A DNA stretch of 64,000 bases, taken from NCBI GenBank assembly GCA_019054805.1, contig JAHQIY010000007.1, positions 3,353,501-3,417,500 on the forward strand, read 5' to 3'. This document shows, piece by piece, positions 13,275-63,058 of this stretch (the first letter of the stretch is position 1; every line of letters begins with the position of its first letter). The position numbers and the translations under genes are program-made. The notes beneath the pieces were generated by a model that was not told the origin of the DNA, ran no database searches, and saw nothing but the letters and a program-made list of their open reading frames with translations. The stretch is from Brachionus manjavacas (taxonomy: Eukaryota; Rotifera; Eurotatoria; Ploima; Brachionidae).

Positions 13275-14303
13275 TCAAGAAAATTTCCACCTATGACCAC
13301 AATCTTGACAAAATGCAAACACAGTCATGGGCTCATCAGCACTTCTTGTTTGCATTTCACTGTAAACTATATTTTTCTTTTTGCATCTACGACAAGTAAG
13401 AAGACTTGTTTTGGCGCCTTCTCTGCGCGCCATCTGATGATCATCAATGGCTTCCTTTGTAAATTTGGCTCTCAATTCTTTCAAATCATCACTTGCCATT
13501 TCTTCGGTAGTCATTACAGCTAGTTTGTCTGGGCTGATCAAGCCAAGTCGAACATTTTCTCTCAATTTGGGATTTTTGGCATCCTTTAGATTCAAAACTC
13601 GACTCCTGATGCGATTCTTGTACTTCATGTCCGTGGCTCTGAACTCATTGAAAATCACCTCTTCGCACCGAGCAGCTATCAAATTAACATCACACAAGGC
13701 AGCACCATTCTCAATAGCCTCTGTTATTTCAAGAGCCTGGGAGAGCATTTCTCGGCACTTTTGCCGAACAGGGTCTCTTGTTTCGCTGAATTTAATGCTC
13801 GAGTTTATTTCTCTTATTCTCTGCTGATCTGCCGAGTTTAATGGATGCGATGAGCTTTTGTGAATTGCTGGTTGCTTACCATTTTCTGTTTTCATATTTT
13901 TGTGGTCGTTTTTGACCTCGGGCGAATCACTCATTGCTCGCTTGAGACCGTTTCCATTGGTGGTGTTTGGTGTAGATGGTGACCTTGAAGACTGGGTTGG
14001 TGAATCGTTTGAATTGGAGTTGGGTGAATTGTCTGCTGGCGCTGTTTCAACTGCGACCAATTTTTTCCAGTTCTTTAGTAAATTCTTTGCCAAACTTCCA
14101 AGTTCTTCTGAATTGCAGCTCTTTCGCAAATTGTTCAGCACCACGCCTATTCCCGTTGCTTTCAGAATCTGAAAATCGATCTGAAGTTTTTTCAATGTGT
14201 TCAACATGTCCATTGATACTTTGACATCGATATCGTTCGATTTCATCATTTTCTCCAGGCGTTTTTTAATACGCATTACGTCTTCTTCGGTTGACACGGA
14301 CAT
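13275..14303 (-). CDS. Transcription elongation factor TFIIS (TCEA-like), copy 1
   Basis: TFIIS rescues backtracked RNA polymerase II by stimulating transcript cleavage in the nucleus (family knowledge). The protein has 342 aa in one uninterrupted exon. Residues about 1-83 form the N-terminal LW/TFIIS helical domain. About 85-155 is a Ser/Pro/Asn-rich linker. About 160-285 is the central Pol II-binding domain (RDPVRQKCREML ... IRSRVLNLKD). About 301-342 is the zinc ribbon, with Cys304, Cys307, Cys332 and Cys335 and the catalytic acidic loop RSADEP (Asp323, Glu324). The ribbon starts CRRCKKK, where copy 2 and human TCEA have CGKCKK. Apart from the ribbon the protein is identical to copy 2 at 23889-24917. 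Homology also covers about 75 bp upstream of the ATG but not the 3' flank. Lack of introns is unusual here, since neighbouring genes have several. Confidence 0.95.
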   Translation of the reverse strand: MSVSTEEDVMRIKKRLEKMMKSNDIDVKVSMDMLNTLKKLQIDFQILKATGIGVVLNNLRKSCNSEELGSLAKNLLKNWKKLVAVETAPADNSPNSNSNDSPTQSSRSPSTPNTTNGNGLKRAMSDSPEVKNDHKNMKTENGKQPAIHKSSSHPLNSADQQRIREINSSIKFSETRDPVRQKCREMLSQALEITEAIENGAALCDVNLIAARCEEVIFNEFRATDMKYKNRIRSRVLNLKDAKNPKLRENVRLGLISPDKLAVMTTEEMASDDLKELRAKFTKEAIDDHQMARREGAKTSLLTCRRCKKKNIVYSEMQTRSADEPMTVFAFCQDCGHRWKFS

Positions 14304-15079
14304 ATTTTTTTAAACAAGTAAATTGATCAACTAATTACTAAACGGGTGTTTTTTTTTAATTATCTAAATTTTAAATTAAAATATTCAAGTTAATTTTCAA
14401 ATTTTTCTAGACAGTGATCATTTATGTTCATTTTTCTTTAAAGTAATTTAATATGTAAAATCCAAAAAAATTAAAAATGTAAATTTTTATTTAAAAAATT
14501 ATTTAAAAAAATAAAATCAAAACCTATTTTATAAAAATCAATTTTTAGACTTGGAATAAATTGTTTAATTAAAAAAGATAGCGAAACATTCTTAGTCTTA
14601 TGCTCTTAAAATTTTTAATCGTTCTTTTATCAATTCAAAATTTTATTCTATTTTTTTAATTAATCTTTTAAAAATCTAAATCTGTGAAATTTTTTTAGTG
14701 CTAAAATTCTGAAAATAAATTTTTTTAAGCTTGAATTTGCAAATAAAATTATTTTTAGAAATAATTCTATTTGTGTTACCGTAAATTTCTTAAACACGTA
14801 AAATTGTAAAAATTGTAATTTTTACTGAAATAAATTCCTGAAATGAAACGAATATTTTATAAAGATAAAAAATAAATTTTTTTCTCTTTAAGATTTTGTT
14901 TTGGAACTGGTAGGATTTCTGCTGATTCTACTCTGAAATTCATCTAAAATTTTATGTTTTAATTTTCTCTAATTCCGACTGCTGTAAAAACCGTATAATT
15001 TGTTTTAGATTCATTGATGACAAATTTGTTTTTTTTTGCAAAAAGTACAACATAATTAATTGCATTTTGCAGAATATTT
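14304..15079. other. TFIIS copy 1 upstream region
   Basis: About the first 75 bp next to the ATG match the 5' flank of TFIIS copy 2, including the word TTGATCAACTAATTACTAAA. The rest is A+T-rich with no gene seen. Confidence 0.5.
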
Positions 15080-15850
15080 TTGAGTTTTTTTTTTTGCTTT
15101 TAGTTGAAGTCAAAAAACATAAATCGTCTGCAAATAAACCTACTTTGACATTACTTGGAATGCTCTTTATTACATCGCTAAAATAAATGATGAATTGAGT
15201 TGGTGGTAAGCAACTTCTTTGGGGTACCCCACATGAGATATTTCTTATTTGGGAGGATTAAGATCTGTATTTGACCAAAAATGATCTGTTGTTGAGGAAA
15301 TCAATGATCCAGTTTGTTAAATTATTTCCCATGTTTAGAGATTTAATTTTTTTTTATTCCTTGATGCGGTGTTTTATCAAATGCTTTTTCAAGATCGAAA
15401 AATACTGCGCCGGTTATTTGTTTGTTGTTGAAGCCTTGGACTACTGTCTGTGTAAGTCTTGGAAAACGATCTTGATTTGATTTTGATCTTCTGAATCCGG
15501 ATTGTTCGTCTGGAATAATATTTTTGGACTTAATCAAATTTTGTAGCTTAGTATTTACAATCATTTCGAGTAGCTACATCAATTAGTTAAGAAGAGAGAT
15601 AGATCTATACGACGCATATTCGTCTGGTGGTTCACCTTTCTTTGCTATCATCATTATCTTAAAGATTTATTATTATTTGTGGTATGTGTCCAATTTCAAA
15701 TGAGTGGTTATATAAATACAGCAAGGGTTTTTGAAAATTGATTGAAGTTTTTAATTGTTTTGTTAATGATGCAGTCTAGACCCAGGGATGCGTTTTAAAG
15801 AAACTGATTTACGTGAAGAGACCGTAATTGTGCCCAAAACTTTTTATTGA
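15080..15850 (-). mobile_element. Decayed LINE reverse transcriptase fragment
   Basis: Reading the minus strand from 15850 down: NHSFEIGHIP, then IIPDEQSGFRRSKSNQDRF, palm motif A FFDLEKAFDKTPH, then GVPQRSCLPPTQFIIYF and motif C GLFADDLCFL. The motif order is correct for a Jockey/CR1-like non-LTR RT, but stops and frameshifts separate the pieces. The GVPQGS motif reads GVPQRS. There is no endonuclease and no 3' end, so this is an internal relic. It differs in sequence from the LINE at 16575-20365, so it comes from a different family or a much older copy. Confidence 0.8.
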
Positions 15851-16574
15851 CATATTCAATATCATATATATCCGAAATTTAACCAGTAAAGCATATAAAG
15901 CAGAAGCCTTATTTGACATACAGATGTCTACAATTCATGATATTTAATTAATATATAATATTAATATATAATATAATTAATATAATATAGTTTATTAATT
16001 ATTATAATATTAATATATAATAATAAATAATAATTAATTAATAATTATTAATAATTTTAATTATTATTAAAAGTCTGAAATCATTTTTTTTTAAATCTAA
16101 ATAAATTAAATTTTATTAAAAAACGATAGCTTCTACTTCTATTTTCTATTTTTCTGGATATAATCACCATTCACTGGGTTGTGAAGTTCATTTCAATTTG
16201 ATCGTTTCAATTAAAAAAAACTTGAATAACTTTTTTACTAAAAAAGATAATTTAGTTTTGTAAAATGCTTAATGGTTGAGCTACTTTTCTTAATCCGAAA
16301 ATATATGTCTGCAAAAACTATGCAATGAAATTACACATTTGATTGTAATACTTTTCTTTTCACAACCCCATCATGCAACACTTTTATTTGTATGCTATAT
16401 TTTGGACAAATAATTTGCCCTTAATTATTTAATTAGTTTATTTTATTGTTTTTGATATAAAATCAAAATTGGCAGCAATTACATCATTTGTGTGTTAGCA
16501 ATTTCGCTAACCAATCCTAACCTAAATAGACGCTGGACTTTAAAAATTCGGTCAAACTAAACCTTAAAAAGTAA
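15850..16574. other. A+T spacer with (TAATAT)-like low-complexity tract
   Basis: About 15940-16070 is a low-complexity tract of TAATATA/TTAATTA words. The rest may include the 5' UTR of the LINE that follows, since a more balanced base composition starts near 16470. No gene was seen. Confidence 0.5.
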
Positions 16575-17711
16575 GATAAACCAGTCACCCACAAAATTAT
16601 ATTTGACTCTCTTGATGTCGCCCTTAATCAAGTCGAGAATGACGCAATCACGTCTATTTACAACTTTTCGTCGAATAAAATATGGATTATCGAATTCAAA
16701 GACTCGTCTTATGTCGAAGAAATTTTTGGTCGAGAAATTGACATTAATGGCACAGTTTTTAAGCTTGAAGATGCGAATAAAATCCCGGATCTTAGAAGAT
16801 ATTGTACCTTTAGATTTCATTTTTTGCCAACAGATTTCGATAACAATCTTCTGAAAAACTTTTTCAACGCGGTTCGTATTGATGGACTGAAAATAGAACA
16901 AATTTCAGAGGAAAAGTACAAAGACAGACCTGAGAGAAAAAATGGTGTAAGAAGAATTAGAATTTCTTATCCAAAGGAAGTAGACAACATTATTAGAAGC
17001 TTGTCTGACCCAACAATCATATATGGTCTAAAATGTGTTGTTAGAATCGTTGAACAAAAACAAAAATGCTACTTTTGTGATGAAGAAGGACATAATATAG
17101 CGAAATGCCCAGTCAAAGATTCAACATGTGAAAGGTGTAAGCAAAAAGGCCACATGACTCAAAAATGCTCGATTGCCGAAAAACTTAAATCTCTTTAGAG
17201 AAAAAAAGTTGATTATAGTGAACTTTTTGTGGAACAAGAAGAAATCCAATCAATCCATGAACAAAAACAAATCGATTCTGAAGAAATTAGTAAGCCAAAC
17301 ACACGAGTATATCAGCTAGATTCCAACAATAGCAATGATTCAAATCTAATCCATCTTACAGGATCTCAAATCCTTAAAACGCCTGTTTTAGAGGATCATC
17401 TTCTTGATGTGCAAAAGTCTTACACTCAAGACATTTTAACACCAGTTCAAGCAAATAAAACTGACAAAACAAAACATTTTATTCAAACGAAAATCCAAAC
17501 CAAGAGACCATCTGAATCCGAGCCCAACAAAAATGATTCAAACGAAGAGAAATCAGACATAGAAAATGATGACCATAATCCTTTCGAGTCAGAAGCAATG
17601 AGTTCAACGAGAAGTTTTCTACAAGGAACTGAACAATCTAAAAAGTTTAGAGCGAACAAAGTAATTGAACAACCAACTGGTTCAAACAATAAACAAGAAA
17701 ATTTAGAATGA
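16575..17711 (+). pseudogene. LINE ORF1 (CCHC zinc-knuckle protein), with one internal stop
   Basis: The open frame begins after the stop at 16572-16574 and runs in one frame to TGA at 17709-17711, broken only by TAG at 17196-17198. The first in-frame ATG is at 16824, but family-like sequence starts before it. Two tandem zinc knuckles are visible: CYFCDEEGHNIAKC and CERCKQKGHMTQKC (about 17069-17171). ORF1 proteins of this kind bind the element RNA and help form the RNP (family knowledge). The part after the stop is Ser/Asn/Lys/Glu-rich and probably disordered. Confidence 0.8.
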
Positions 17712-20213
17712 TCGTTTCAAAAAACAACTCTCTTATGAAAAAAAGGTTAGTAGTTACACACTGGAATTGTTTTCATCTTCCTAGTAAGACTAAACTTTTG
17801 GAAAATTTTTTGGTTCAGAACTGTCCCGACATTGTTTTGCTCAATGAAATAAAAATTGATTTGAGTGAATCAAATATTTATTTAGACTTTAAAAACTATC
17901 ACTCAATAACTAAACCACGCAATAGATATGGAGGAGGAGTAGCTATTTTGATTAAAGAAGGAATTGAATTTTTACAAGACTTTTCTTTTGAGCACTTAAA
18001 TTGTTAACTGCTTTGTATTAAACTAAATCTAGGAAAGAGTAATGAAATATCTGTGTTTAGTCTATACAATCCACCCAACAAATTACTTAATATTGAGCTA
18101 TTTAAAACAATAAAAAGGAGCTGTAGAAAATACATTTTGTGTGGGGACCTTAACGCCAGGACGAAGCAAATAGGCTGTTTAGGAGAAAATGAAAACGGCT
18201 CATTGCTAGAAAAAATAATCAATGAATTAGATTTTTCAGTGATTAACGACCCATGTCCTACATTTAATATTTTTAATAAGAATTACTTTGAAATTCTTGA
18301 CATTTTTTTAGTTTCTTCTTCATTAATAGATAAAGTTACTGATTTTTGTGTTCTCAATAGTCAAGATATGACTAGTGATCATTTTCCAATTGAAGCATCT
18401 ATTTCCATTGACTACTTAATTAAAAGCAAATCTACAATTAGGAAATTCAACAATAAGAAAGCAAACTGGCAACTTTGTCGAGACACCTTAAATGAAGATA
18501 GAGATTACCTTAGTGAAAACACACTTTCAATAGATGAGCTGAATAACAAAATTACAAAAAAAATCATTTCTGTTTCACATAAATGCATACCATATCAATC
18601 AGAGAAAATATACAAAACGAGTCTACCACCAGATATAGTAATGCTGATTAAAGAACGTAGGAAAATTAGAAGAAACTTTCAAAGAACTCGTTGTCCATTA
18701 CTTAAGAAAAGATTTAATCACTTAATCTCAGAGTTAAAAATCTCAGTAAGAAAATTCTGGAATCAAAATTGGTTTGATTTCATTCAGAAAATGGGGAAAA
18801 ATCCACTTTCAAGCAGGCCTTTTAGGAAAAAAATAAACAAATTTAGAACACAGAAAGGATCAAAATTGATTCCAAATTTGATCTCAAATAACAAGGAATT
18901 AAAAACTGATAAGGAAAAAGGAAAATGCTTCGGAGATATATTATCTTCAACATTTAGTCCTAACTCTGATCTAATAGATACTGAAAAAGATAATGAAATA
19001 ATTAGCTTTAATTTTGAATATCTCAAAAATTACAATCAGTGTAATTTCAATGATCCTATTTGCCCAAACGAACTTATATTGGCTTTAAAAAGACTGAAGA
19101 CTGAAGCGGCCTCAGGACCTGACCAAACACATAATCTAATGCTTAAAAATTTACCAAGAAATTTCTTAGTAGAAATCTCAAAACTTTTTAACTTATCTCT
19201 GCGACATGGTATTATTCCAAAATCATGGAAAACTGTGAACATAACTATGATTCAAAAAAATGCATCTTCTCAACAAGATCCTTCAAACTATAGACCAATC
19301 AGTATAACAAGTTGCCTAGGAAAGTTACTTGAGCGTATAATCTACACAAGACTCTACAATTTTTTAGAAAAATTTTTTTTACTTATCCAGGAACAATCAG
19401 GATTTAGGAAACATCGGCGAACTTTCGATAATCTTTACTTTTTGATTCAAAAAATTGTAGAGTCATTTAATAGAAAGAAAAGAGTTTGTTCCCTTTTCTT
19501 TAATATTTCTAAAGCCTTTGATAGGGTTTGGCACGAAGGTTTAATTTATAAATTAATAAAAATAAATCCACCACAATACTTAATTAACTGGATTAGATCC
19601 TTCTTAGACTCAAGGACATTTAGGGTAAATGTGAATGACCACTTGAGCGACGAATATCAAATAACTGCAGGTGTTCCTCAAGGCTCAGTTATTAGTCCTC
19701 TTTTATTTAGCATTTATATTAATGATATCCCTAAAAGAAACAAAACAAATAATGAATGCTCTCTTCTTTTTGTAGATGATCTAGTTACTTTTTTTATTTA
19801 CAACAAAAAGGGTAATCTTGAAAATAAGATAAATAAATACACCAACCAAAGAACAATGCCTAATTAAGTGGAAAATGAAGATGTCAGTTGAAAAGTCGTG
19901 TTCAGTAGTATTCTCTAAGTACAAGAAAGAAGGTGATGATCTTAACTTAAAAATTTATGGAAATAGAATAAAAAGCCAAAAAGAAATTAAGTTTCTAGGT
20001 ATTAAATTTGATTCTAAATTATATTTTAATACACTGGTTGACGAAATAAAAGAACGTTGCAATACAAGGCTAAATCTAATTAAGATTCTGTCAAACAAAA
20101 AATGGGGTCTTAATCAAAAAACGTTGGGAAATCTTTATAAATCTTTAGTTGGTTCAAAACTCTCTTTATCATATATCTATTTTTTATTCCAGGTTATCTA
20201 TTTTTTTTATTAA
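17708..20213 (+). pseudogene. LINE ORF2 (endonuclease and reverse transcriptase), broken
   Basis: It starts at the ATG that overlaps the ORF1 stop (ATGA). AP-endonuclease part, about 17745-18420: THWNCFHLPSK, LLNEIKI, the divalent-metal motif CGDLNART and TSDHFPIEASI, so the catalytic Asn, Glu, Asp and His are present. RT part, about 19050-19850: ASGPDQTHN, NYRPISITSCLGKLLE, EQSGFRKHR, palm motif A FFNISKAFDRVWH, GVPQGSVISPLLF and motif C LFVDDLV. Motif A has Asn where the first catalytic Asp is expected, and motif C has Val in place of Ala. An in-frame TAA lies at 18005-18007. The frame shifts near 19840-19865 and continues from 19875 as KMKMSVEKSC..KEIKFLGIKFD. The C-terminal region usually found after the thumb is missing. 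Confidence 0.85.
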
Positions 20214-20589
20214 CTCTTACAAATTTTTTTTTTTTTTTCCTTATTTTTTGATTTTATTTTACTTAACTTTTTTTAATTTTTAATTTTACTTAACTTAATT
20301 TTTTTTTTTTTTTTTTTATTCTGAAGGAGCTTTAGCTCGGTACAGTTAACAAATAAATAAATAATTTGTATCCAGGCAAACTTTACCTGAGTTTATTTAG
20401 AGTTGGTTAATTAGTGCTAGAAGTTTTACTAAACTTAGAGAACAGTTTTCAAAAATGTTATCTATAAAAATGTTAATTTGCTAAAACATGAGTTTCAATT
20501 TTTATCATCAACAATTAAATTAATGGTTAAAAGAATAATATTTTTGTTAAATATATTTTGAAAAGATAATAGAAAATTTAAAAATTATG

Positions 20590-23800: not shown

Positions 23801-23888
23801 ATAAATACTTTTTATTTAAATTTACAAAACAAAATTTTGTCTCATCTTGGCAAATGGAACCATAGATGAGAAAAATTGGGCGAATAAG
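20800..23888. other. Gene-free A+T-rich stretch
   Basis: No gene with recognisable homology was seen. Open frames at 21676-21864 and 22213-22413 are short, start with GTG or are Lys/Phe/Leu-rich, and match nothing I know. The stretch lies downstream of TFIIS copy 2. Confidence 0.5.
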
Positions 23889-24917
23889 TCATGAAAACTT
23901 CCATCTATGACCACATTCTTGACAAAATGCAAACACAGTCATGGGCTCATCAGCGCTTCTTGTTTGCATTTCACTATAGACAATGTTGTTCTTCTTGCAT
24001 TTGCCGCAAGTAAGAAGACTTGTTTTGGCGCCTTCTCTGCGCGCCATCTGATGATCATCAATGGCTTCCTTTGTAAATTTGGCTCTCAATTCTTTCAAAT
24101 CATCACTTGCCATTTCTTCGGTAGTCATTACAGCTAGTTTGTCTGGGCTGATCAAGCCTAGTCGAACATTTTCTCTCAATTTGGGATTTTTGGCATCCTT
24201 TAGATTCAAAACTCGACTCCTGATGCGATTCTTGTACTTCATGTCCGTGGCTCTGAACTCATTGAAAATCACCTCTTCGCACCGAGCAGCTATCAAATTA
24301 ACATCACACAAGGCAGCACCATTCTCAATAGCCTCTGTTATTTCAAGAGCCTGGGAGAGCATTTCTCGGCACTTTTGCCGAACAGGGTCTCTTGTTTCGC
24401 TGAATTTAATGCTCGAGTTTATTTCTCTTATTCTCTGCTGATCTGCCGAGTTTAATGGATGCGATGAGCTTTTGTGAATTGCTGGTTGCTTACCATTTTC
24501 TGTTTTCATATTTTTGTGGTCGTTTTTGACCTCGGGCGAATCACTCATTGCTCGCTTGAGACCGTTTCCATTGGTGGTGTTTGGTGTGGATGGTGACCTT
24601 GAAGACTGGGTTGGTGAATCGTTTGAATTGGAGTTTGGTGAATTGTCTGCTGGCGCTGTTTCAACTGCGACCAATTTTTTCCAGTTCTTTAGTAAATTCT
24701 TTGCCAAACTTCCAAGTTCTTCTGAATTGCAGCTCTTTCGCAAATTGTTCAGCACCACGCCTATTCCCGTTGCTTTCAGAATCTGAAAATCGATCTGAAG
24801 TTTTTTCAATGTGTTCAACATGTCCATTGATACTTTGACATCGATATCGTTCGATTTCATCATTTTCTCCAGGCGTTTTTTAATACGCATTACGTCTTCT
24901 TCGGTTGACACGGACAT
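23889..24917 (-). CDS. Transcription elongation factor TFIIS (TCEA-like), copy 2
   Basis: The role and domain layout are as in the copy at 13275-14303: LW domain about 1-83, disordered linker about 85-155, Pol II-binding domain about 160-285, zinc ribbon 301-342. The ribbon is CGKCKKNN ... RSADEP ... CQECGHRWKFS, closer to the human CGKCKKKN ... CNECGNRWKF than copy 1, so this copy probably keeps the ancestral ribbon. The protein is 342 aa, intronless, on the same strand as copy 1 and exactly 10,614 bp away. Only a handful of nucleotides differ over the first roughly 900 coding bases, but about 15 of the last 125 differ. The gene looks intact. The start ATG is shared with copy 1 and sits right at the family's usual N-terminus. 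Confidence 0.95.
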   Translation of the reverse strand: MSVSTEEDVMRIKKRLEKMMKSNDIDVKVSMDMLNTLKKLQIDFQILKATGIGVVLNNLRKSCNSEELGSLAKNLLKNWKKLVAVETAPADNSPNSNSNDSPTQSSRSPSTPNTTNGNGLKRAMSDSPEVKNDHKNMKTENGKQPAIHKSSSHPLNSADQQRIREINSSIKFSETRDPVRQKCREMLSQALEITEAIENGAALCDVNLIAARCEEVIFNEFRATDMKYKNRIRSRVLNLKDAKNPKLRENVRLGLISPDKLAVMTTEEMASDDLKELRAKFTKEAIDDHQMARREGAKTSLLTCGKCKKNNIVYSEMQTRSADEPMTVFAFCQECGHRWKFS

Positions 24918-25342
24918 TTTTTTTTAAAGAAGTAAATTGATCAACTAATTACTAAACGGGTGTTTTTTTTTAATTATCTAAATTTAAATTTCAAATAATT
25001 AGCTTATTTTAACAAAAATCATTGACGGTGCGTTTTAATTTAGTTTTGTATATTTAAGGACATCAATAAGATAGTTTTAAAAAATTTTGAAATTTATTTT
25101 TGATCAACAATTGAAAAAAAAATAGAAAATTTTGATTAAAATATTTATTCAAAATAGATTTTGGCCAAAGTAAATTTGTAAAACCACTAAAAGATTCTTT
25201 GGTTCTTTTCGCGGCGTTTTCGGAACGCGTAAAGCCCGCTCTAGTAATCAAATTTCATTTTAATTTTTTTTGATTCCAAAAACTTTAAAAAATTGAATGA
25301 AAATGGTAGTTTAAAAAAGAAGTTACTAATTCAAAATGGTGG
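24918..25342. other. TFIIS copy 2 upstream region
   Basis: About the first 70 bp match the 5' flank of copy 1. A G+C-rich islet (about 25200-25245, containing GCGGCGTTTTCGGAACGCG) stands out in A+T-rich DNA. It lies inside a minus-strand open frame (25063-25251) that I do not recognise. It could be an exon remnant. Confidence 0.35.
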
Positions 25343-26520: not shown

Positions 26521-26525
26521 TATTT

Positions 26526-26874: not shown

Positions 26875-27949
26875 AATTTGAGTTTGAAAATCACTTTAAA
26901 TCATACTTCATTTTTAAATTGAAACTTGAGATCATTGTAAAAGATGCCTTAGCACTAATCAATTTAGTCCTTTGTATTTATATTTATTAAATAAATTTTA
27001 TTATAGTTTTTTTAATATTAATCGTTAAAGCTATTTTAATCTAAGTTATTAGCTTACCATCTTTTTTAAAAGTGTATGTCTGATCTTCTTTTAATAGTAA
27101 TCTTATGGTGTTAATTTATATCATCAGCTATTTTATTCTTTCCAGAAAGAATAATTTTCTTAAGTTGTCGAATTTTACGATAATGGAATAACAAAGCCAA
27201 AAGCAATAATGAATCAGCTAACTAAAATAGGTAAAAAAAAATTAATAATTATGTCTTAATATAATCCTGATGTTTTAAACAGAGCAATAGAATTTATTTG
27301 CCTTTTTTTATCAGGAACAAATTTATTTCAGAGTTGTTTGTTTTAAAGTCCCAAATTAAAGTCCAAATAATTAATAAATAAAAGTATTTGGTTCGAACTT
27401 TTAAAAAAAAGTCTGGACTTAGACTTGAACTTAAATTTTAAGAAAAAAACTTAAACACACTTAAAAATAGGCTTCTAGAGATCCGATAGTCGAATTTTTA
27501 TTTGATTTAATAAGAAAAAAAATATTATATACATATAACTTTATATCTTCAAACTAGAACAAAATAATAAACAGCTCTAAAATTGTTAAAATCTTTTTAA
27601 TCGTTAAAATTAGATTTTTTGCAATTTTTTTTTAATTTTTAAATAGAGACCTTTACAGTTATCAAAGTTAAATTTTTTTCAATTAAAATTAACATTTTTT
27701 TACTATTTTCTCAAATTTAGGGTTTTTTCTATAAATTAGTAATTTTTAAAATAAAAAACTTAAATCTAATAATTAGATAAAACCTTTGGTTTCAAAATAT
27801 AATTGTTTTTATTCAAAAAAAAAATGGAATCTTAACAAAAAAACCTAGAAAATGACAAATTTTTGAATAATTTTTTTAAATGTTTTTTTCATCGTTACAC
27901 AAATAATCTCCGAAAAATTAGTATGGCTGAAGAAAAATTTTTTCTAAAT
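26875..27949. other. Gene-free A+T-rich stretch
   Basis: No gene or element was recognised. It lies downstream of the minus-strand TDP2-like copy, whose homology to copy 2 ends only about 30 bp beyond the stop codon. Confidence 0.5.
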
Positions 27950-29270
27950 TTAAATCGCAATGTTTGATTCAAGTTGACAGTAGCTTTGAATCGCCCAATG
28001 GTCTGAACAAAATCTACCACAACATTTTAATTTTTCCAGGCCTTCTAACTCGAAATAAACTGGCATCAAAGTCAACTCTGGTTTTTTGCCATTACTTTTT
28101 TTGGATTTAGATTCGATCAGTGGTCTATAATAGAGCCTGTCAAACCGACATCTAGGCTTGGATTTTCCATTCATTTTTAAATTTGTATTCCTCAAACAGT
28201 CCCAAGTAAACAAGCATTCTTTGCGCGAACCAGTCGACTCCCACATATCATAAATTTTCTCTGGTAATCCACCTATTGCTTTCAGCTTACATAAAATAAA
28301 ATTCAGTAGGTTTTGTTTTTAAAAACTAAACAAAAAAATACTTCTGAGTCTCTTAAATTTAAATCTCCGCCAAAAAAGACAACCGAATCATTATCTTGCT
28401 CAATCATCTCTTCCATGCATCGTTTTAGCTGATCTATTCGCTGCTTGGAAAATTCGGCCGTACTCTCTAAATGACTTGTCATGGCACATATTTTAATTTT
28501 GTTCAAAAAATTCAAATCAACTTTCAACAAATTTCTTCCCATTACAGAATTATCAAACCAAATAACATTTTTGTTTTTCACACTACATGTTTTGTTTTTG
28601 GTCAAAATCAAAGTATAGTAGCCGAATGGCGATGGCTTGTTTAAGTTGTCATTATAATTGCTAGATGTGAATGTGTATTTTAAAGCTAAATGCTCAGAAA
28701 GCATTTTTTCAGAATGTTCGATAACCTCTTGTAAAAAAATTACATCAGGATTTTCACTACAACAAAATTTAATAAGTCTGCAACAATTCTTATCAAATTA
28801 ATTTACTTTTCGATTTTTTTTACAACCCCTAAAGTTCGACTTTCTAAATCTGATTTATGTAAGCCATCAATGTTCCATGATAGTATTTTGAAGAGATTTT
28901 TTTCAATAAATACCTTTTTATTAGTACTATTGACTGAAAAATTTGGCTCTTCTTGATTTTCGGAGCAATCTGATGACTCATCGCTAGTCATTTGTTTTTT
29001 TTTACATTTTCTAAAATAGAATTTTAATAAAATTTAATTATTAACAAAAGGTATTTTTATAAAAACTCTGCATCTTTATCCAAAATTCCAGTATCGAAAT
29101 AAGTAGCAACTTTAGCTTTTGTGATTTTATTTTTTGTAGCCCTTAAACCTTCGTCTTTTTCTTTATGAATAATCCATTTTGTATCTTGAGAATAATATTT
29201 TGCAAAAGTAGTACCATTTCCTGTAATTTCTGCATAAATTCTCAATTTAGAATCATTTTGTAACAATCGT
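27950..29270 (-). CDS. TDP2-like tyrosyl-DNA phosphodiesterase 2, copy 1 (5' end decayed; possible pseudogene)
   Basis: TDP2 removes topoisomerase II peptide adducts from DNA 5' ends (family knowledge). Minus-strand exons are about 29270-29067, 29010-28807, 28756-28342 and 28285-27950, with the same phases and sizes as copy 2 for the last three. Catalytic motifs are intact: SWNIDGL, FLQEV, SHLEST, GGDLNLRDS and CSDHW. Exons 3-4, the intron between them and the intron before exon 3 are nearly identical in DNA to copy 2 (36361-37217). Exon 2 is only partly similar. Exon 1 keeps a recognisable UBA-like end (YAEITG ... SQDTKW) but has no ATG and meets stops just upstream (about 29272). The donor of exon 1 reads GTTTTT. 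Either an unseen 5' exon supplies the start or the 5' part is dead. Last-exon differences from copy 2 are three missense changes. Confidence 0.75.
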
Positions 29271-29820
29271 TTACTTTACTTTTACTATTTGGTATTCTGA
29301 TCGATTTTTTTAGACGATTTAGCGTCATAAAATAAACAAATTTTCTTGAAATCATTTCATAATCTTTAATAAAGACAATTGAATTATTTTTATTTTTGAT
29401 ATTTTTTGTTAAATTTTTCCAATTTTTTAGAGCATAGCAAAAATTAATTTTTTTTTTACAAAATTTGTTCACATTTGTTTAATTCTTTTTTTTCTAAAGC
29501 TAAAAATTTTTAACAAATTTCATGTATTGACACATAGAATTTTAAAAAATTATGCTTTAGTACTTTATTAATTTAATATTTTTATTTATTTAAGTGTTGA
29601 AGGTAGGGATTTCAAGCCATTTAAATTTAAAAAAATTACATTAAGTAATAAAAGTACAATAAGGTTTATTATTATTTTTCTTTTATTATTCAACGTTAAT
29701 CATCAGTATAGTGCCTTTTTCTACAGTTCAATAATGCCCTGAAGTAATTGCAGTGTAATATTCACTCATTCTTTTTTAAATATTTTTTGCAAAAGTAATA
29801 AAAAGAAAAATTCATTTTAT
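29271..29820. other. Upstream region of TDP2-like copy 1
   Basis: A minus-strand open frame (29242-29472, GTG start) contains KNWKNLTKNIKNKNN, which faintly resembles the WNxLP tail of LINE ORF2. This is too weak to call. Nothing else was seen. Confidence 0.3.
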
Positions 29821-29824
29821 TATT

Positions 29825-34399: not shown

Positions 34400-35821
34400 A
34401 TTAATATTTGAAGTGTGAAATGATTTAACTCTTGGATAAAAAGCTCTGATACTGAAGTTTTTCAAAATAGACATTAATTAATGCAGAATTAAGTCAAACA
34501 ATATTCTTAAATATTACACTAATTCGAAATTAAACACCAAATATTAAGAAATATATTTGTATTAATATCTATTTAATAAAAGAGATCAATTTTTGGATTT
34601 TTGGATGATGTCGAATTTTAATCTCAAATTGAGATTTTTTACAAAATTCAAAAAATTCTTTAAACAAAATATTTTATAAGATTAAAAAAAAATTAAAAAA
34701 TTTTTTGTTACACTGATATTTTATTTTTCTTGGGAATAAACTTGTTAAGATCTTGAATTTAATCAAGTAATGGAATCTCATAACAAAATTAATTAAAAAG
34801 TCATTCATTCTTTAATAACAAAAGAAATAAGAAAATTTAAACTAAAGTTATTGGAATTTTCAAAAAAGATAGTGTCAAGTGTTTGCGCCAATTATGAATC
34901 AGTCGAAAAAAAATATTTATAAATCGGTCAATAAATAGGGAATTATCTTTTTCAGTAGAATTGCTTTGAAACCTTTTGTAAATTTACGTCTAATTTAAAG
35001 TATTGAATCAAATTTTTACTGATCAATAAAAAAAAATAAAAAAAGAATTTTTAAAAAATAAATAAATTTGACTTTAAATATTGTCAAATAATATAAAATA
35101 TAAGACCCCAGGTGTCGTTCTCATTAGGATCTCATATGAGATCTAATTGAGATTCAATGTGGATTACATGTAGAAAATTGGAGATTCATATGAGAACTCA
35201 TTAGAAAAATGTATGAAGATTTGCGTGAAAATCTCAAGAGCTTCTCGTTTATTTTCTCATTACTTTTCTCACGTATTCAATCTGGTGTCGTAAATCATTT
35301 AAACATTTTTGATAAAAGAAAAAAAACTTCCTAATAGAAATAAACGAATTTCATTCTTAGAACTTCAGAACATTCGATAAAGCTTTTTTAACAATGTATA
35401 AAGTATCTTTTATAAACCGCTTACAATTATATTATATCTGTATTTTGATTATTATAAATATAACTTGAGGAGTATCCAGCCAGGTTGGAATGGAATTCGA
35501 TCCTTTTTTTTCAACCAAATACTTATAATATTTTAAATTAAAAAAAATCTGATTAATGATTTTGATTAACAAAATTTTTGATTTTTACCAAATCAATGTT
35601 ATTATAAAAATTCAAGATATTTTCAAAATTACTTTGCTTAACCATTCCCAAATTTTGAATATGTTTAAATTAACTACCAAGCTAATTATTTCATCTAAAA
35701 ATTCGAAGACAAAAACGGCATCATTCTTCAAAATTAATTTCAAACCAAAATAAAAATTTTCAATATTTAATAATCAAATAAATTTTTCTTACAAATTTGA
35801 AATTTTTTTAATTGAATTACA
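34400..35821. other. Spacer upstream of TDP2 copy 2
   Basis: Mostly A+T-rich. At 35105-35290 there is a cluster of GAGAT/CTCAT words, including the perfect 16-bp palindrome GATCTCATATGAGATC (35128-35143) and an inverted GTTCTCAT/ATGAGAAC pair. This may be a small palindromic element. The rest should hold the TDP2 promoter. The open frame at 35556-35753 is not recognised. Confidence 0.4.
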
Positions 35822-44200: not shown

Positions 44201-44202
44201 AG

Positions 44203-47506: not shown

Positions 47507-49559
47507 AAGTAGTATCTTTGTAATAAGGTTTTTATTGTTAGTAAAATTCTAACTTTAAATCATTGATTTTTAAGCTTAAAGTCTTCTCAAATCACACTTG
47601 TAATTGAAAAATGAACAAATCTATCAAAATTTGCGAGCAATATTTTAAATCTAGAAAAATAGTTTTAAAAGCTTAAAATGCGAGTAAAATAGAATAATCC
47701 TATAGATTTAAAAAATATATGATTCTTTGAAAATGAATGATTATGGAAAAATTGCTAGAGAGTCGAATCTAATTCATTAGGTTGTACGGCTACGGTTTGA
47801 GCATGTCTTGTAGATTAATCAAATAGCATTTAACAAAGATCTTTTTGCTTGACTTGTGTTAGATACAAAATAAATTATATTCTGATTTTTAAGACTTCAT
47901 TTATTCGACTTGTAAATTAGAGTAGATTTTTTTAGATTAACAAATTTGGAAAACTTGAAAAATACTTAAGCCCTTTTGGTTTTGTAATTCGCTACGTAAA
48001 CAAATAATAAAGCTATTTTAAATAATATAAGCCTTTTTATTCCCGAAAATTTAATTCTTACCTATTTAAACAAAAGAACTTTTTTTAAGTGAAAAAATAA
48101 TCATAAGACGTGTGAACAATGGCAACTTCTTCGATTAAAAAATCACAGTAGTAGCTTTTTTTTGACTCTTAAGTTTTCTTGAAAAATTCTGAGAAAAATA
48201 AAAAAATTTAAAGCTTTTACTTCAAACGACCATTAAGTATTTAATGAGTCGATTCAAATAATATATTCCCTTGAAAAATTTGTCACTTAAAACACTTTAA
48301 CTTAAATCCAACAAAATGTATCTTAAATTGAGTTTCTGTGATTTTTTTTAAATTAGGTTCATCCAAAATTTTTGACCAAATGCATTTAAAAGTTGAACTT
48401 TAAAAAGATGCCTTAATTTCTCAGTTAACTCTGAGAGTCAAAAAGTTTTTAATTTAATTAAAGCAAAACCAATTTTTAGTAAAGAAAAAAAGGGAGCTGA
48501 TTAAAATTTTGAACCATTTCCAGGGCGAAACTAATAGTTTTCAAAAGAAAAAAAATTAATTGAATTGTGTTGTTATTTAACTTTTAATGTTTCATTAGAT
48601 TGAATTTAAATTAATACTTGCCATCAACAGATTATTTGGCTTCTTAGCTCTAAGCTTAAATTAAATTTAACTATTAAGGTAAACAGGCCTAAAAAAATTT
48701 ATAAAATTAAAATTCGTAATGACAAAATATAGAATTAATATCGATGTCCAGCAATACAATATTTAATAATCGAGTACTAGCTTTTCAATAAAAAAATTTT
48801 AAATATTTTAAACTTTTTGATTTTCAGAAACCTGAAGCTATTTGCTTCCAATTTTTGTTTAAAAGAGACACCAAAAATACCAAATTTTAAAATAAATATG
48901 GTCTAATAAAGAATGAAAATAAAAAGCAACAAAATTGAATAAATGACCCAACATTTTATTTTATTAACACAAGCAATTTTAATAGGGCATTCATTTGAAA
49001 AAAAAATAAAACTATTTTCTCAAGATTTCATAAATTTTGACGAAATTAAATTTAACTTTAGCAAAAAATATTTTGAACGGACATTGCACAATAAATCAAA
49101 TTTTGGCCAAAGATCTTGTATCAACTGAGCAAATTTCACATATTTCTAATTAACTAGCTATCCATCTTTGGACATGGGTGATAAAATTAATTTAAATTTT
49201 GAAATCAAAAAAGCATTTTTAAAAACAGCTAAATAAAAATTTTTAAATATAAGACTAATTTTTTTCTATTTGATTGTCATTTTCAAAAAAAAAAAAGCAA
49301 TTTTAACTTTAAATTTACAAATAGACTGTTGAAAATTGCATTAAACCAAAACCATATGAAATACGATAATAGTTGAATAAATCTCATCCAAAGTGCTTAT
49401 AGCTAAAAAAGATTAGTATTCAAAAAACATGAAGCTTTATGATATAAGTGGAATATTTTGAACAAAATTTTGATGTGCACGACCTTCACGGATTGTTATT
49501 CTATGACGCTTTTTTTTTTAATTTAGAAAATTAAATTAGAAAATTAAATTAAAGAAAAT
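47507..49559. other. Intergenic region upstream of KANSL1-like copy 1
   Basis: A+T-rich and shared by two divergent genes (the hypothetical gene on the minus strand, KANSL1-like on the plus strand). A short direct repeat of AAATTAAATTAGA words lies at about 49524-49552. No other element was seen. Confidence 0.45.
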
Positions 49560-52500
49560 ATGATGACCACTAATGAATTGATGGACACAGACCAAAATGA
49601 ATCCATAATAGATAATAAAAGTCATCAGAGCCTAAAGCTATCCAAATTCATGAACTCCACACCGGCCTTGAACACACCACCGCCCGAGTCCATCGACTTC
49701 TACCATGAGATTTCTTTGTCCGATATTTCGCTCAACCGACTAGAGCACATAGTCGAGGACACCGGTTTTCAGGAGGACACCGCGCTCACCCCTCTCATTC
49801 ACAGTCCGCCCCAGTCGGCCGCCTCCGTAGAGCGCAAAAATTTTCACAAATTAAACTCCGAATTTATCTCCAAACATTCTTTATTCAAGCTTAATTTGAA
49901 ACGATCTTTCAGTCGATTCAATCGCTTGAGACTAAATTACCTTAGAGTAAAACCGATCGTTAATAGTGAACACGAATCTAACAATGAGCTTACTGATGCC
50001 GAAGCTGAAATTTACGATGACTCATTTTTGCCCTCGAGCAAACAGGACCTAAGTGAATCACCCAAGCTTGTCCACATTAAAAATCAATTGAAACACCTAT
50101 CGAATGAAAAGACAAAAGAAATTAAATATTTTGGAACTAATGTGATCAAATCGAACTGTGAATGCGATTCAATGACAAGTGGTCGAGAGATATGTGGGAT
50201 TTGTGGTCTGTCCAAATCAAATAAAGAACCTAAACGAACACTCAAAAGTATCTATTTTGATCATCCTTATATAAAATTTCCAATGCTGCACTCATCCAAT
50301 GATCCAGTTGATGATTTACACTTTTTGAATTGTGTTTATGATGACGCTTTTAATAAAATGGTTAATGAACGCTTGGACAAGCTATTTAACTCTGTGGACC
50401 ATTTTCCAAAAGAAAGTGACTCTCTACCCGACCTAACAACAGAAGAGTAAGTTTTTTTTTATTTATCATTAATAAATTTGAGAATAATAAAAATGAGAGA
50501 ATTTTTGGGCAAAATTATTCATTATTTTTCAATTTTTATTAGAATTTGAAAGTTAAATTAAATAATTAATTTTGAAAAAAATTAAATGAATGGAAATAAT
50601 TTAAAATTAAAAGCTTGTTAAAGATATTTCTAATTTTTATTTAAAAATTTTTAGTTTATTTTAGTGCACTTAATTTTTTTTAATGTGACCGTTTTTGTTT
50701 TAAAACAGACAAAGTTAAAGACATTTAAAGTCAAAATTTTTAAAAATTTATAAATGACAATTTTTTCACAAATATTTTCAGTGGTTAATCGATACAAGGA
50801 TAATGCTATTTTACGTAATTCACGCCACATTTGGTAAGATTATATATAATGTTATTTCAATAAATTACATTAAATGTTGTTTGTAAAAAAATGTAAAGTT
50901 ACCAAATTTGACGTACCTAAATGTAATTTTTTTAGATTATTTTTATAAAAGAAATATTGAAAATAATAAGCTGGAAAGTATTTGACAAGTGCTTTTCTGA
51001 TTGAATTAAAAAAGAATAAAATATTAACTTTAAACATTTACTAATTTTTATGTATTCCTTTTAAGATTCAAATTAAAAAGAGTTTCAGCATCATTTACTG
51101 AAACTCTTTGGTATTCAGTATAAAATTTTTTAATTTGACCATTTACATATTCGACATAATTTTTAAAATTTGAAAAGCTTAATTTTAGGAAAACTTCAAC
51201 ATTAGGAAAAAAATTAAAGGATGAAATATCACCTAAAATCATACCTTTTAGATACTTAATATTTTAACATTCTTAATTACATGAAATTAACACATCTTTA
51301 TTTTTTATTGTCTAACTTTTAAATCTTCGTAAAAATTTTGGCTCATTTTCGAACTTCATTTGGGGACGAAAATTATTAATTTAAAAAAGCGCGCATTTTT
51401 TTTAGAAATAAATCAATTGGTATTTTGAAACAATGAATTTTAATTAAAAGATAAAAATATTAATTTGAGTACATTAATTTATATTCGCATTGACTAAAAT
51501 ATTGTTTAGATAAATTTTTTTATTATTTAGGATGATATGATTTTAGTTTAATGTAAATTTGGTTTTAATTCAAATAAACAATCACGCTATTTCATACTTA
51601 GGAACAAAAGTGACACATTATTTTTATCTCTTCTGTCTTTAAATCAGTGTTTTATTATAATTTAAATTCTCAAAAGCAAACAAGAGCAATTCAATCTACA
51701 AACCCAACTATAGGTTTAAAGTTAAAACTTTTTTGGGATCAGAATTATATTAGATATTTTAAATATTAAAATGGAGTTTAAATCTTCATAATTTAAGTCT
51801 TTGTTAAATAGTTTTTAAAAAATCAAACTTAGAACTTAAAATCAATTATTTTCTGATATTCATTTAAAAAATTGTTTCAATAATTTTTTACTTGACAATC
51901 TATAAATTTTTAATTGAATATTTCCAAACAAAAAAATTTAGATAAAACAAATATGTCAAAAGATGAACTGAAATAATCTATATTTTATTGAAAACAATAG
52001 AGGCCTTGTCATAAATTGTAAATTAAAAAAATTAATAACAATCTCTAGCACTTTCACCCTTTTTACGTCTACAGTAAAGAAAAAGTTGTGCATAGAAGAA
52101 AGCTCCACATAATTTTAAAAATGAAATTAATATATTTTTAATTCTTTTTAAATGAAAAAGTTAAAATATAATTTTAATGGTAAGCAAATTAAAAATAAAA
52201 CATTTTGATTAAACGAAAATAAAATTAAAAAAAACTTTTCTATTAATTTCTATTCCAAATATTTTATTTTTGATTGTTTTTAAAAACTCAATATATTTTA
52301 ATAAATCTAATGAATAATAATCAGTTCGTATAATCTGTATTTAGAGATAAATTCTAAAAAAATATAATTTCGAAAAAACTTATTCCAAATTAGCAATCGA
52401 CTGAATCAAAATTTAAGCCTCTTTTAAATGGATAATTTTTACCATCAATTATTTTTGGATCTAAATTTTTGTAGGAATAAAGTCTTATTTAAAATTAATT

Positions 52501-53127
52501 TTAAGATTGATGGAGTTTTTTGAGGAGAAGTTTGAGCCTGTTTTGTTGGACGCTGAAAACTTTAGTCCGCGAAGGCCGAGCAAAAAGGCCAAGACTTACA
52601 ATCAAGCCAAACTTAAAGAATTTCGTTTGCGTGCCAAAAAAGCTGCTCTTTGTCAAAGACAGCAAAGGAGTGCAAGAGAGAGTGCCAAGATCAAGAGAAT
52701 GGTTAATTCGCGCAGCTCAAGTACATCTATGATGAACGACGATGCCCAGTACATTTCATCGAACACAGACAAATACAACATAAACAACATCCTAATACCT
52801 AACGAACTGATCAGCAATCAAAAAATATCTTCTATTCCCGCTCACAAAATCACTACTCCTGGCTGGCGAATCATCGAAATTGAGCCCCTTTGTGACGGTC
52901 CAAAGCCTGATGAAGAACTGGACGACACCTCTATTTTAGTCAGACATAAAATTATTGAAATGAAAGAAAAAATAAACTTTTCAAATATAAAAAATTCACT
53001 TGATACCCCTCTTAAAGATAGTGAATCCACTTTGCCTAGCAATGGATCAAATAGAAATTTAGAATGGCCTGTGCGAAATTTTCCTCTGAGTGACCAAGAC
53101 TATAAGGCAATGGTTGATGAAAGATAA
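49560..53127 (+). CDS. KANSL1-like PEHE-domain protein, copy 1
   Basis: KANSL1 scaffolds the nuclear NSL histone acetyltransferase complex and binds KAT8/MOF through its PEHE domain (family knowledge). Two exons, 49560-50446 and 52506-53127, join in phase 2 and give 502 aa. Exon 1 starts MMTTNELMDTDQ, contains TPALNTPPPESIDFYHEISL, and has a CxC-x9-CxxC cluster (CECDSMTSGREICGIC) resembling the Cys pair upstream of PEHE in human KANSL1. Exon 2 holds a basic region (RRPSKKAKTYNQAKLKEFRL). The PEHE core follows: YNINNILIPNEL, ITTPGWRIIEIEPL and LDDTSILVRHKIIEM. It ends WPVRNFPLSDQDY, like the human WERRTFPL. Compared with copy 2, exon 1 lacks about 33 residues, including a Trp-containing segment. 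The intron is 2,059 nt. Further 5' exons cannot be excluded. Confidence 0.82.
50447..52505 (+). other. Intron of KANSL1-like copy 1
   Basis: It begins GTAAGT and ends TTTTAAG. Only its last roughly 70 bp match the corresponding intron of copy 2; the rest has no visible homology to it. The minus-strand open frame at 51048-51242 is unsupported. Confidence 0.7.
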
Positions 53128-53485
53128 AACCGCGAATCAACTAGTGTTGTTTCTCTTGAGCTTCCTGGTACTTAGACAAATCTCGAGCTAAAAGTTTGAA
53201 TTTGTTCACAGATTACTCGTTGTCTATTTAATGGTTATTCGGATGACTTTATTAATAGAGAAAAAAAACAGTCATTAAAAAAGTGTTTAGATGTTTTTTT
53301 GAATTTTAAATAATTGTTTTTTGAATTTTAATAATCTAATTTGTATCAAGTCCATATATTAAATACTTGTTTTTTTTTGGAATATTATTTTTTCACTTTA
53401 GACCGGTTAACTAAAAGTCATGAACATTTTTTCCATTTTTTTGTTGTATTTTCGATTAAAAATAAAACCGGTACTCGGGTCTGAT
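53128..53485 (+). promoter_or_regulatory. 3' UTR of KANSL1-like copy 1 with AATAAA signal
   Basis: The 358 bp after the stop are nearly the same as 62719-63058. AATAAA lies at 53461-53466, and homology to copy 2 ends about 15 bp after it. So the conserved block stops close to the likely polyadenylation site. Confidence 0.5.
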
Positions 53486-59400: not shown

Positions 59401-59658
59401 CAACTCTACTAAATCAAGAATTGCTCTCTCTCTTAGCTCTCTTGTTCATTGCGTTTCTCGTAGTTTCCAACACAAACCCGCTTGCAATATTTCAGCGCAG
59501 TTTCATTGCGATTTGAAGTTTTTTTTTTTCAACTTCAATTCATAAACCCCCATCTTTTTCAAAGCTCACATGGTCCTTAGGACCAAACAAAATAAGTTAA
59601 AAAACTGACAAGCGCTCTTATTCTATTTAGAATATTAATTTAACAGCAACAAAAAGTA
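53486..59658. other. Six-kilobase gene-free stretch between the two KANSL1-like genes
   Basis: Almost entirely A+T-rich with no supported gene. Noted items are a tRNA-box-like fragment at 53660-53698 (rejected as a tRNA), a (TAA)n run at about 57718-57737, and a more G+C-rich patch at about 59100-59160. The last few hundred bases should include the promoter of copy 2. Confidence 0.5.
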
Positions 59659-62600
59659 ATGACCGCTTTTGAATTAATGGACACTAATCAAAATGAGGCC
59701 ATAAAAGAGAACAAGAGTCATCCGAGCCTGAAGCTATCCAAATTCATGAACTCCACACCGGCCTTGAACACACCACCGCCCGAGTCCATCGACTTCTACC
59801 ATGAGATTTCTTTGTCCGATATTTCGCTCAACCGACTAGAGCACATAGTCGAGGACACCGGTTTTCAAGAGGACACCGCGCTCACCCCTCTCATTCACAG
59901 TCCGCCCCAGTCGGCCGCCTCCGTAGAGCGCAAAAATTTTCACAAGCTAAACACCGACTTCATCTCCAAGCACTCTTTGTTCAAGCTTAATTTGCAGCGC
60001 TCTCTCAGTCGATTCAATCGCTTGAGACTAAATTACCTGAGAGAAAGGCCGAGCGAGAAAAGTGGACTGGCCTACGAACTCGACAGAATTGACGGCTCTG
60101 ACAACGAGCTGACTGATGACGAAGTCGAGATCGATGATGACTCATTTTGGTGCTCGAGACGCCTCAGACTCGGCTCCGAGTGGAGCAGATGCAGACAAAA
60201 ATTAAGTCTGATCGAGTGCAAACAGAACTCGCTGAGCCAAAGTGAATCAGCCAAGCTTGTTCACATTAAAAATCAATTGAAACACCTGTCGAACAAAAAC
60301 GCCAGAGCCATCGAGTATTTTAGAGCGAATGTGGTCAAATCGAACTGTGTGTGTGACTCGATGACAAGTGGCCAAGAGATGTGTGTGTTTTGTGGTCTGG
60401 AACGATTGTCCACGCCGAACAAAGGGCCTAAACGAACGCTCCAAAATGTCTATTTTGATCATTCCTACACTAAATTGCCCAAGCTGAACTCATCCAATGA
60501 ACCAGTTGATGATTTGGACTTTTTGAGTTGTGTCGACGATGACGCTCTTAATAAAATGGTCAATGAGCGCTTGGACAAGCTATTTAGCTCTGTGGATCGT
60601 TTTCCAAAACAAAGCGACCCTCTACCCAACCTGACCACAGAAGAGTAAGTAGTATTTTTTTTTTTTTGAAAAATTTTCAAAATGAGCGAATTTAAAAAAT
60701 TTAAAATTTATTTTTTTTGAAACTTTTTTTAATTATAATCCAGCTTAACCATAAAATTTATTAAATTGGTTTGAAATTGAAAGTCAAGAAAAAAAAATCA
60801 ATTATTTTACTTTGGAAATATAATTTGAAATTTTTTTAACTTTTCAATTTAGGATATTTTTTTTTTTTCAATTTTAAAATTTCATTAATTTGTTTGTTAA
60901 ATTTAAAATTTGAAATTTTTTTCACCAAAGTTATGTATCATCTTTTCTAAGATATTTAAAATATTGAGAATCTTACGCCTACCAAACTTTAAAAGCCCTC
61001 ACTTAATGAAAATCATTTATTAAATTTTTTTATATATTTTCTGATAGATAATAAATTAATCTTGAAATGATAGTAAAATAAATGAAAAACTTATAAAATG
61101 TAAATAAAACAAAGTAAAAGTGAATCGAACATAAACACAATCTTATTTTTTTAAACTGTCACCGAACACATAAATTTGTTGTTTCATGAATGTTAATTAA
61201 ACATTGCCTTTTTCTATAAATTAAAAAGAAAATCAATTAAAACATTAGAAAAATGTAATTTTGATTTAAAAAAGGGAACAAAGCATTCAAGGTCGATTTT
61301 AGAATTAACCTTGATAATTAAAATTCATTTGAGTTTTTGTCTCATTTTTGGTTCTTATGATTTGTTTTCTTTTATTTAATTTTATGTTTTATTTCACTTT
61401 TTTAAATATTCAAAATTAAAAATTTTAGTTTGTGTTGTTGTTTTTTAGATTCACATTTTATGTGTTTTCTTAATTTCCATTTTTGATTTAATTTCTGGAC
61501 TTATCTCGAATAGAAAATTTTGAATTTATTTTTTACATAAAACAATCAATTATTATTTTATATATTTGCGGACTTTAAAGTGTTCATTTTTTGAACATTC
61601 GTCACAATTTTTTAATCATCAAAATTTTACCTTTTGAACAAATGATATCTAATTAATGATGCAATTAATCTAGCTTCAAATTAAATTTAACAAGTTAGAA
61701 ATTAATTAAAAATTGCCAATAAATGAGCACATGATGCTTATGAGAGAACTTACCAAAAGTTTAATCTTAAATAAATAATTAAAGAAAAAAAGATAATTTT
61801 TTGTTTTTTTTTAATATATTTCTTAATTAATTATGAGAAAATTTTGCTTCCAACCTGAAAAAAATTGCTTTTCTAACATTTAAAATTAAAATGTTTTTTT
61901 TAAAAAACAGTGATGACTAAAGTGGCATCTAAATTAAAACAAAATGAATATCATCTAAAATTTAATTAAAAATGAAAAGTGTAAATAAATGTTCAACTTA
62001 ATAATTTAAAAAAAATAAATTTTAAATTTTTACCATCAATTATTTTTGGATCTAAATTTTTGTAGGAATAAAGTCATATTTAAAATTAATTTTAAGATTG
62101 ATGGAGTTTTTTGAGGAGAAGTTTGAGCCTGTTTTGTTGGACGCTGAAAACTTTAGTCCGCGAAGGCCGAGCAAAAAGGCCAAGACTTACAATCAAGCCA
62201 AACTTAAAGAATTTCGTTTGCGTGCCAAAAAAGCTGCTCTTTGTCAAAGACAGCAAAGGAGTGCAAGAGAGAGTGCCAAGATCAAGAGAATGGTTTATTC
62301 GCGCAGCTCAAGTACATCTATGATGAACGACGATGCCCAGTACATTTCATCGAACACAGACAAATACAACATAAACAACATCCTAATACCTAACGAACTG
62401 ATCAGCAATCAAAAAATATCTTCTATTCCCGCTCACAAAATCACTACTCCTGGCTGGCGAATCATCGAAATTGAGCCCCTTTGTGACGGTCCAAAGCCTG
62501 ATGAAGAACTGGACGACACCTCTATTTTAGTCAGACATAAAATTATTGAAATGAAAGAAAAAATAAACTTTTCAAATATAAAAAATTCACTTGATACCCC

Positions 62601-62718
62601 TCTTAAAGATAGTGAATCCACTTTGCCTAGCAATGGATCAAATAGAAATTTAGAATGGCCTGTACGAAATTTTCCTCTGAGTGACCAAGACTATAAGGCA
62701 ATGATTGATGAAAGATAA
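59659..62718 (+). CDS. KANSL1-like PEHE-domain protein, copy 2
   Basis: Role as for copy 1. Exons 59659-60644 and 62097-62718 join in phase 2 and give 535 aa. Residues about 25-96 are identical or nearly so to copy 1. The middle has an extra segment with RRLRLGSEWSRCRQKLSL that may correspond to the conserved Trp/coiled-coil segment (WTWLQ...) of vertebrate KANSL1. The Cys cluster is CVCDSMTSGQEMCVFCG. Exon 2 differs from copy 1 by two amino acids and carries the whole PEHE core. Exon 1 is clearly more G+C-rich at silent sites than the non-identical part of copy 1, so this copy probably preserves the older codon pattern. The intron is 1,452 nt. Tandem, same strand as copy 1, about 10 kb away. 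Confidence 0.83.
60645..62096 (+). other. Intron of KANSL1-like copy 2
   Basis: Begins GTAAGT and ends TTTTAAG. A+T-rich with no nested gene seen. The last roughly 65 bp match copy 1. Confidence 0.7.
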
Positions 62719-63058
62719 AACCGCGAATCAACTAGTGTTGTTTCTCTTGAGCTTCCTGGTACTTAGACAAATCTCGAGCTAAAAGTTTGAATTTGTTCAC
62801 AGATTACTCGTTGTCTATTTAATGGTTATTCGGATGACTTTATTAATAGAGAAAAAAAACAGTCATTAAAAAAGTGTTTAGATGTTTTTTTGAATTGTAA
62901 ATAATTTTAAATCTAATTTGTATCAAGTCCGTATATTAAACTTTTGTTTTTTTTGGAATATTATTTTTTCACTTTAGACCGGTTAACTAAAAGTCATGAT
63001 AATTTTCCCATTTTTTTGCTGTATTTTCGATTAAGAATAAAACCGGTACTCGGGTCTT
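62719..63058 (+). promoter_or_regulatory. 3' UTR of KANSL1-like copy 2 with AATAAA signal
   Basis: Near-copy of 53128-53485 with a short deletion near 62900. AATAAA lies at 63036-63041. Downstream of about 63058 the two loci are unrelated. Confidence 0.5.

Follow-up and report, generated by a model that had tools for sequence, protein, structure and literature searches.

Patchwork near-identity between linked paralogs of Brachionus manjavacas is best explained by recurrent ectopic gene conversion

Many neighbouring duplicate genes in the rotifer Brachionus manjavacas are patchworks, in which nearly identical tracts that run through exons and introns stop at sharp edges and synonymous divergence jumps from almost nothing to high values; the same arrangement recurs in neighbouring pairs on other contigs. 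Recurrent ectopic (interlocus) gene conversion between linked paralogs is the best explanation for this pattern, with a probability of about 0.88. The analysis started from a window of 64,000 nucleotides (C7:3353501-3417500, GC content 27%) within a 114.17-Mb, 61-contig genome, and was extended to 200 kb of flank and to neighbouring protein kinase genes elsewhere in the genome.

Patchwork pairs in the window and its flank

Self-BLAST of the window recovers three duplicate pairs, TFIIS (direct), TDP2 (inverted), and KANSL1-like (direct), along with two short self-matches of 161 and 78 bases that lie outside them. The three local pairs with patchwork near-identity described by the sequence-only reading are hence real, and base-level alignments display their sharp edges. 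The tracts measure ~0.2 to 0.9 kb at ~99% identity, with introns and untranslated regions included, and end abruptly in adjoining sequence that differs by 6 to 27%. That reading had put the tracts at about 99% over hundreds of bases, which stands overall but not for the best KANSL1-like 5′ segment (96%, with a single difference in a core of about 200 bases); the divergence of at least 10% that it saw alongside holds for most pairs but not for the KANSL1-like 3′ part (13/213), and for its spacing of 7 to 11 kb the measured distance between matching segments is 6.7 to 9.7 kb. A single large segmental duplication of the window was rejected, given that each gene adjoins its own copy and that the DNA between is unrelated. 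In 10,000 column shuffles per pair, scored by the best tract, the observed score was never reached for any part of the window pairs or for the kinesin pair described below. The longest identical run is a weaker statistic: for the KANSL1-like 3′ part, 137 of 10,000 shuffles attain the observed value, and none does so for the other parts of the window pairs.

The TFIIS gene is intronless and 342 codons long, with Pfam matches to TFIIS_M, Zn_ribbon_TFIIS, and Med26. Copy A (13275 to 14396, coding sequence 13275 to 14303) and copy B (23889 to 25010, coding sequence 23889 to 24917), both on the minus strand, were delimited by self-BLAST and alignment. Codons 1 to 303 carry three synonymous differences and no amino acid difference between the copies (dS 0.016), and the last 39 codons are diverged with a dS of about 1.0, the switch from identity to divergence falling at the Zn-ribbon. 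At the level of bases, the best tract contains 3 differences in 911 positions, against 25 in 211 in the rest of the aligned part. Among its best candidates, a protein search of the animal's own genome lists the two copies, a weak 44% match on C6, and a third piece at C7:3491883-3492068, ~114 kb from the nearer copy. This piece, 187 bases at 97% identity with a TGA and a one-base gap, resembles the TFIIS copies no further in the flanks compared. Retrocopying may be the remote origin of the intronless TFIIS gene; as the source of the TDP2, kinesin, and PKA pairs it was rejected because introns lie in their tracts.

The TDP2 pair is inverted, with a self-BLAST match between 27923-29242 (copy A, minus strand) and 37243-35941 (copy B, plus strand). 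Its tract of ~0.9 kb includes introns, and the 5′ part of copy A is diverged; differences number 8/906 inside the best tract versus 106/397 outside, although the tested exons offer little or no diverged coding sequence for contrast. The name rests on the tract exon, which matches solved TDP2 structures with a best E value of 1.2e-21, and the own-genome protein search lists two places for this gene among its best candidates. Copy B has a UBA-like first exon at 35816 to 36130 (UBA_4, E 6.4e-9). In copy A, the corresponding region (28900 to 29300) contains a weak counterpart, 47% identical over 60 amino acids, and its 5′ end may therefore be decayed.

The KANSL1-like pair, on the plus strand, comprises two tracts separated by an intron that cannot be aligned. 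The shorter tract lies in the 5′ exon (copy A, 49536 to 50504; copy B, 59627 to 60693), where it covers alignment codons 24 to 94 and has diverged coding sequence on either side. Alignment and codon analysis of this exon give a dS of 0.021 inside the tract and 0.63 outside, with 13/308 differences inside the best tract versus 132/652 outside. The longer tract spans the 3′ exon, the adjoining intron end, and the 3′ flank (copy A, 52434 to 53482; copy B, 62025 to 63057), with 3/820 differences inside versus 13/213 outside. Because the entire coding part is near-identical here, the contrast for the 3′ exon rests on the noncoding flank. This exon holds a PEHE match below Pfam's cut-off (E 1.5e-4), and MSL1 chains also match the gene, below threshold (E ~0.1). 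The PEHE domain is common to KANSL1 and MSL1, so the name KANSL1-like is tentative. Two places are listed for the gene among the best candidates of the own-genome protein search.

A fourth patchwork pair, an inverted kinesin duplicate whose motor exon is closest to KIF13B and KIF1A chains, lies ~81 kb beyond the window. Here about 2 kb are alike at roughly 99%, introns included. One edge of the tract falls inside the coding sequence of exon 1, where the diverged part (dS 1.4) gives way to identity, and at the other edge the tract runs into exons of much lower similarity. The 1.5-kb part tested contains 6/1,175 differences inside the tract versus 73/370 outside; the codon test of exon 1 alone is weak, as 118 of 5,000 shuffles reach the observed score. 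Kinesin copy A also contains an insert of about 230 bases that copy B lacks. This insert recurs at 99% identity ~4.8 kb away (238 bases, C7:3500883-3501120 and C7:3495839-3496076), with no other close copy among the matches listed; it could be a small mobile element or a piece inserted during templated repair.

The remaining coding matches in the flank are short, of low identity, or reverse transcriptase– or repeat-like as judged by eye. At C7:3512353-3517334, nested direct and inverted repeats of 99.6 to 99.9% identity occur near an apparent reverse transcriptase fragment. Long open frames in the window at 16575 to 20213 resemble, by eye, a non-LTR retroelement (zinc-knuckle, reverse transcriptase–like), and pieces 95 to 98% identical to them lie ~41 to 45 kb off in the flank. 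Neither Rfam nor tRNA scanning found a match in the window.

Kinase neighbours elsewhere in the genome

The pattern is also found on other contigs, in keeping with the genome-level process that the sequence-only reading proposed. In an own-genome protein kinase search, 126 out of 423 candidates received a score; as the top-scoring portion of a single family, they may not be representative of duplicates in general. The search yielded 19 neighbouring matches at most 30 kb apart on 12 contigs, all of which were examined; the first two pairs were picked for their equal scores, and the other 17 followed afterwards. A blastn match over a long stretch links 12 of the 19, and 10 of these 12 contain a tract, with longest identical runs of 137, 179, 233, 319, 326, 511, 533, 575, 780, and 997 bases; in the other nine census pairs the longest run is 6 to 16 bases. 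The two DNA-similar pairs without a tract are C7:5.965/5.978 and C7:5.978/5.989. In 8 of the 12 DNA-similar pairs, a near-identical tract has divergence alongside. The other two tract pairs belong to one array at C22:1073810-1097716, where three kinase copies ~11.6 kb apart are 99.8 to 100% identical over 0.94 to 1 kb, across nearly all of the fetched sequence; this has the appearance of a simple tandem array of recent origin.

Five of the ten tract pairs are interior patchworks, namely PKA (C9), MEK-like (C2), C17, C5, and C1:370/382, and in these dS stays at or below 0.053 within the tract and jumps to 0.53 or saturation beyond its edges. In the three pairs C1:382/393, C7:5.989/5.998, and C3, the tract borders unrelated or hardly alignable sequence, the fetched stretch of the C3 pair stopping within the tract. 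Codon analysis of seven kinase pairs, with C1:382/393 and C22 left out, gave a dS of 0 to 0.053 inside and 0.53 to saturated outside, and the observed score was reached in 0 of 5,000 shuffles for each; the outside part is short for C3 (7 codons) and C7 (34 codons).

The PKA pair on C9 is the clearest conversion case. Both edges of its tract fall within homologous exons, with 1/709 differences inside versus 126/337 outside. At the first coding edge, the sequence passes from strongly diverged to identical in a few bases. The one intron inside the tract is identical except for one base and a three-base poly-T indel, and within the next exon the sequence returns to saturated synonymous divergence. 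Neither purifying selection nor a fresh duplication would produce this arrangement. In the MEK-like pair (C2:4583085-4588750), two identical islands of about 140 to 150 bases flank a strongly diverged segment. There the kinase motifs HRD and DFG are retained by one copy, whereas the other reads HNN and DIE. The copy lacking both motifs is a probable pseudokinase neighbour.

The 33 fetched kinase loci include no pair from different neighbourhoods that reaches 90% identity in alignment, and the top long match has 71% over 459 bases; since these loci were picked as neighbours, the kinase data do not speak against conversion between unlinked duplicates. For the PKA gene and for the three genes of the window, the matches listed in own-genome searches include no unlinked near-identical copy. 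As regards a possible GC bias of conversion, GC3 is higher inside the tract in 7 of the 10 comparisons in which either side has 30 codons or more, and likewise in all three smaller comparisons outside that count (TDP2 exon 28303, C3, and kinesin exon 1).

Gene conversion and its alternatives

Two features of the tracts speak for conversion. Near-identical stretches are flanked by diverged homologous sequence beyond what chance yields (0/10,000 or 0/5,000 shuffles, bar kinesin exon 1), and neutral sites are homogenised within them, as seen in synonymous divergence and in intron alignments. In the KANSL1-like 5′ exon, kinesin, PKA, MEK-like, C17, C5, and C1:370/382 pairs, diverged homologous coding sequence lies on both sides of the tract, which argues for conversion rather than local duplication alone and supports the frequent ectopic conversion that the sequence-only reading had suggested as the process.

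Repeated recent partial duplication, in which part of a gene is copied next door so that the ends of the copy abut unrelated DNA or an older paralog, is the strongest competitor, although an improbable one. It would suit the tracts that border unrelated or hardly alignable sequence (C1:382/393, C7, and C3), and short stray gene pieces do occur in the region, such as the TFIIS piece and the 238-base copy at kinesin. For C1:382/393, C7:5.989/5.998, C3, and the C22 array, plain recent duplication could suffice, which counts against conversion as the cause there. In the seven pairs with diverged coding sequence on both sides, however, the new piece would have to take the place of an internal stretch of a paralog already there, and this amounts to conversion.

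Still less probable is an assembly or polishing artefact, whereby haplotypes were joined or one copy was corrected with reads of the other. Each pair has its two copies on the same contig in unrelated surroundings, and the 264 kb of window and flank contain no N. As the sequence-only reading had argued, the diverged parts are too different to be alleles: their divergence far exceeds the hsp82 heterozygosity of 0.0016 given for the Brachionus plicatilis complex in the available text of PMC3495898. Miscorrection would also have to erase dozens of differences and halt at a sharp edge in many pairs. Strong purifying selection fits the mostly coding location of the tracts but is already contradicted by synonymous and intron sites, which are identical or nearly so within them while synonymous dS nearby is at least 0.5.

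Ectopic gene conversion would therefore have acted on older duplicates, and the local duplication that the sequence-only reading also offered holds as the earlier event that created the pairs. The local duplication of each gene would date far back, and divergence of 10 to 40%, or past the point of recognition, would since have built up between the copies in intergenic DNA, in many introns, and in some coding stretches. Later, pieces of about 0.1 to 2 kb would have been copied between neighbours via homology-directed repair, probably by synthesis-dependent break repair without crossover. Segments that are still similar would stay open to further conversion, and those past a divergence threshold, or with a favoured difference, would leave the exchange and diverge freely, their escape leaving islands with sharp edges. 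We infer the repair pathway, the role of selection, and both the recurrence and the direction of conversion.

Known systems and significance

The process itself is already known, since conversion in Caenorhabditis and concerted evolution of mmr-b are published. The available text of PMC3966223 reviews interlocus conversion between Caenorhabditis paralogs, with tracts that, as here, sometimes extend into introns and with conversion commoner between close neighbours. One statistical screen described there found 143 of 7,829 pairs (2%), compared with 8 of 12 here, although the denominators differ, all duplicates in the one case and linked pairs of one kinase family in the other. Within the same species complex as our animal, PMC3495898 argues, in the part available, for concerted evolution of the mmr-b mate-recognition genes of the Brachionus plicatilis complex, and places two mmr-a copies on a single B. 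manjavacas fosmid at a distance of 7,590 bases, a spacing that resembles that of the pairs described here. Whereas mmr-b is one family built of tandem repeats, the present pairs consist of ordinary cellular genes, and their patchwork lies within exons. In our search of the open-licence literature, no paper turned up that describes conversion as widespread among ordinary paralogs of monogononts, and the breadth of conversion in such genes looks new.

Homology-directed repair acts in the B. manjavacas germline, given the efficient knock-in described in the available text of PMC10395877 (allele in 12 of 18 F2), and this speaks for the conversion reading. The vasa guide RNA target plus PAM given for B. 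manjavacas in Table 1 of that paper has a single exact match in this genome, at C6:3501244-3501266, and its reversed control has none; this one site fits B. manjavacas or a very close relative.

A more tentative proposition, which we consider possible but somewhat short of even odds, is that local ectopic conversion is unusually frequent in monogonont rotifers, such that most surviving neighbour duplicates are mosaics and selection decides which islands escape. If it is true, the MEK-like pair would illustrate it, with identical islands on either side of an altered catalytic segment. Gene conversion is central to ideas on how mutations are purged or spread in asexual and part-time sexual lineages, and in B. 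manjavacas, a small animal that is grown in clonal culture and for which CRISPR methods are published, ectopic conversion is seemingly common enough for direct measurement. Mosaic paralogs can also mislead estimates of duplicate ages, read mapping, and the design of guides or primers in Brachionus.
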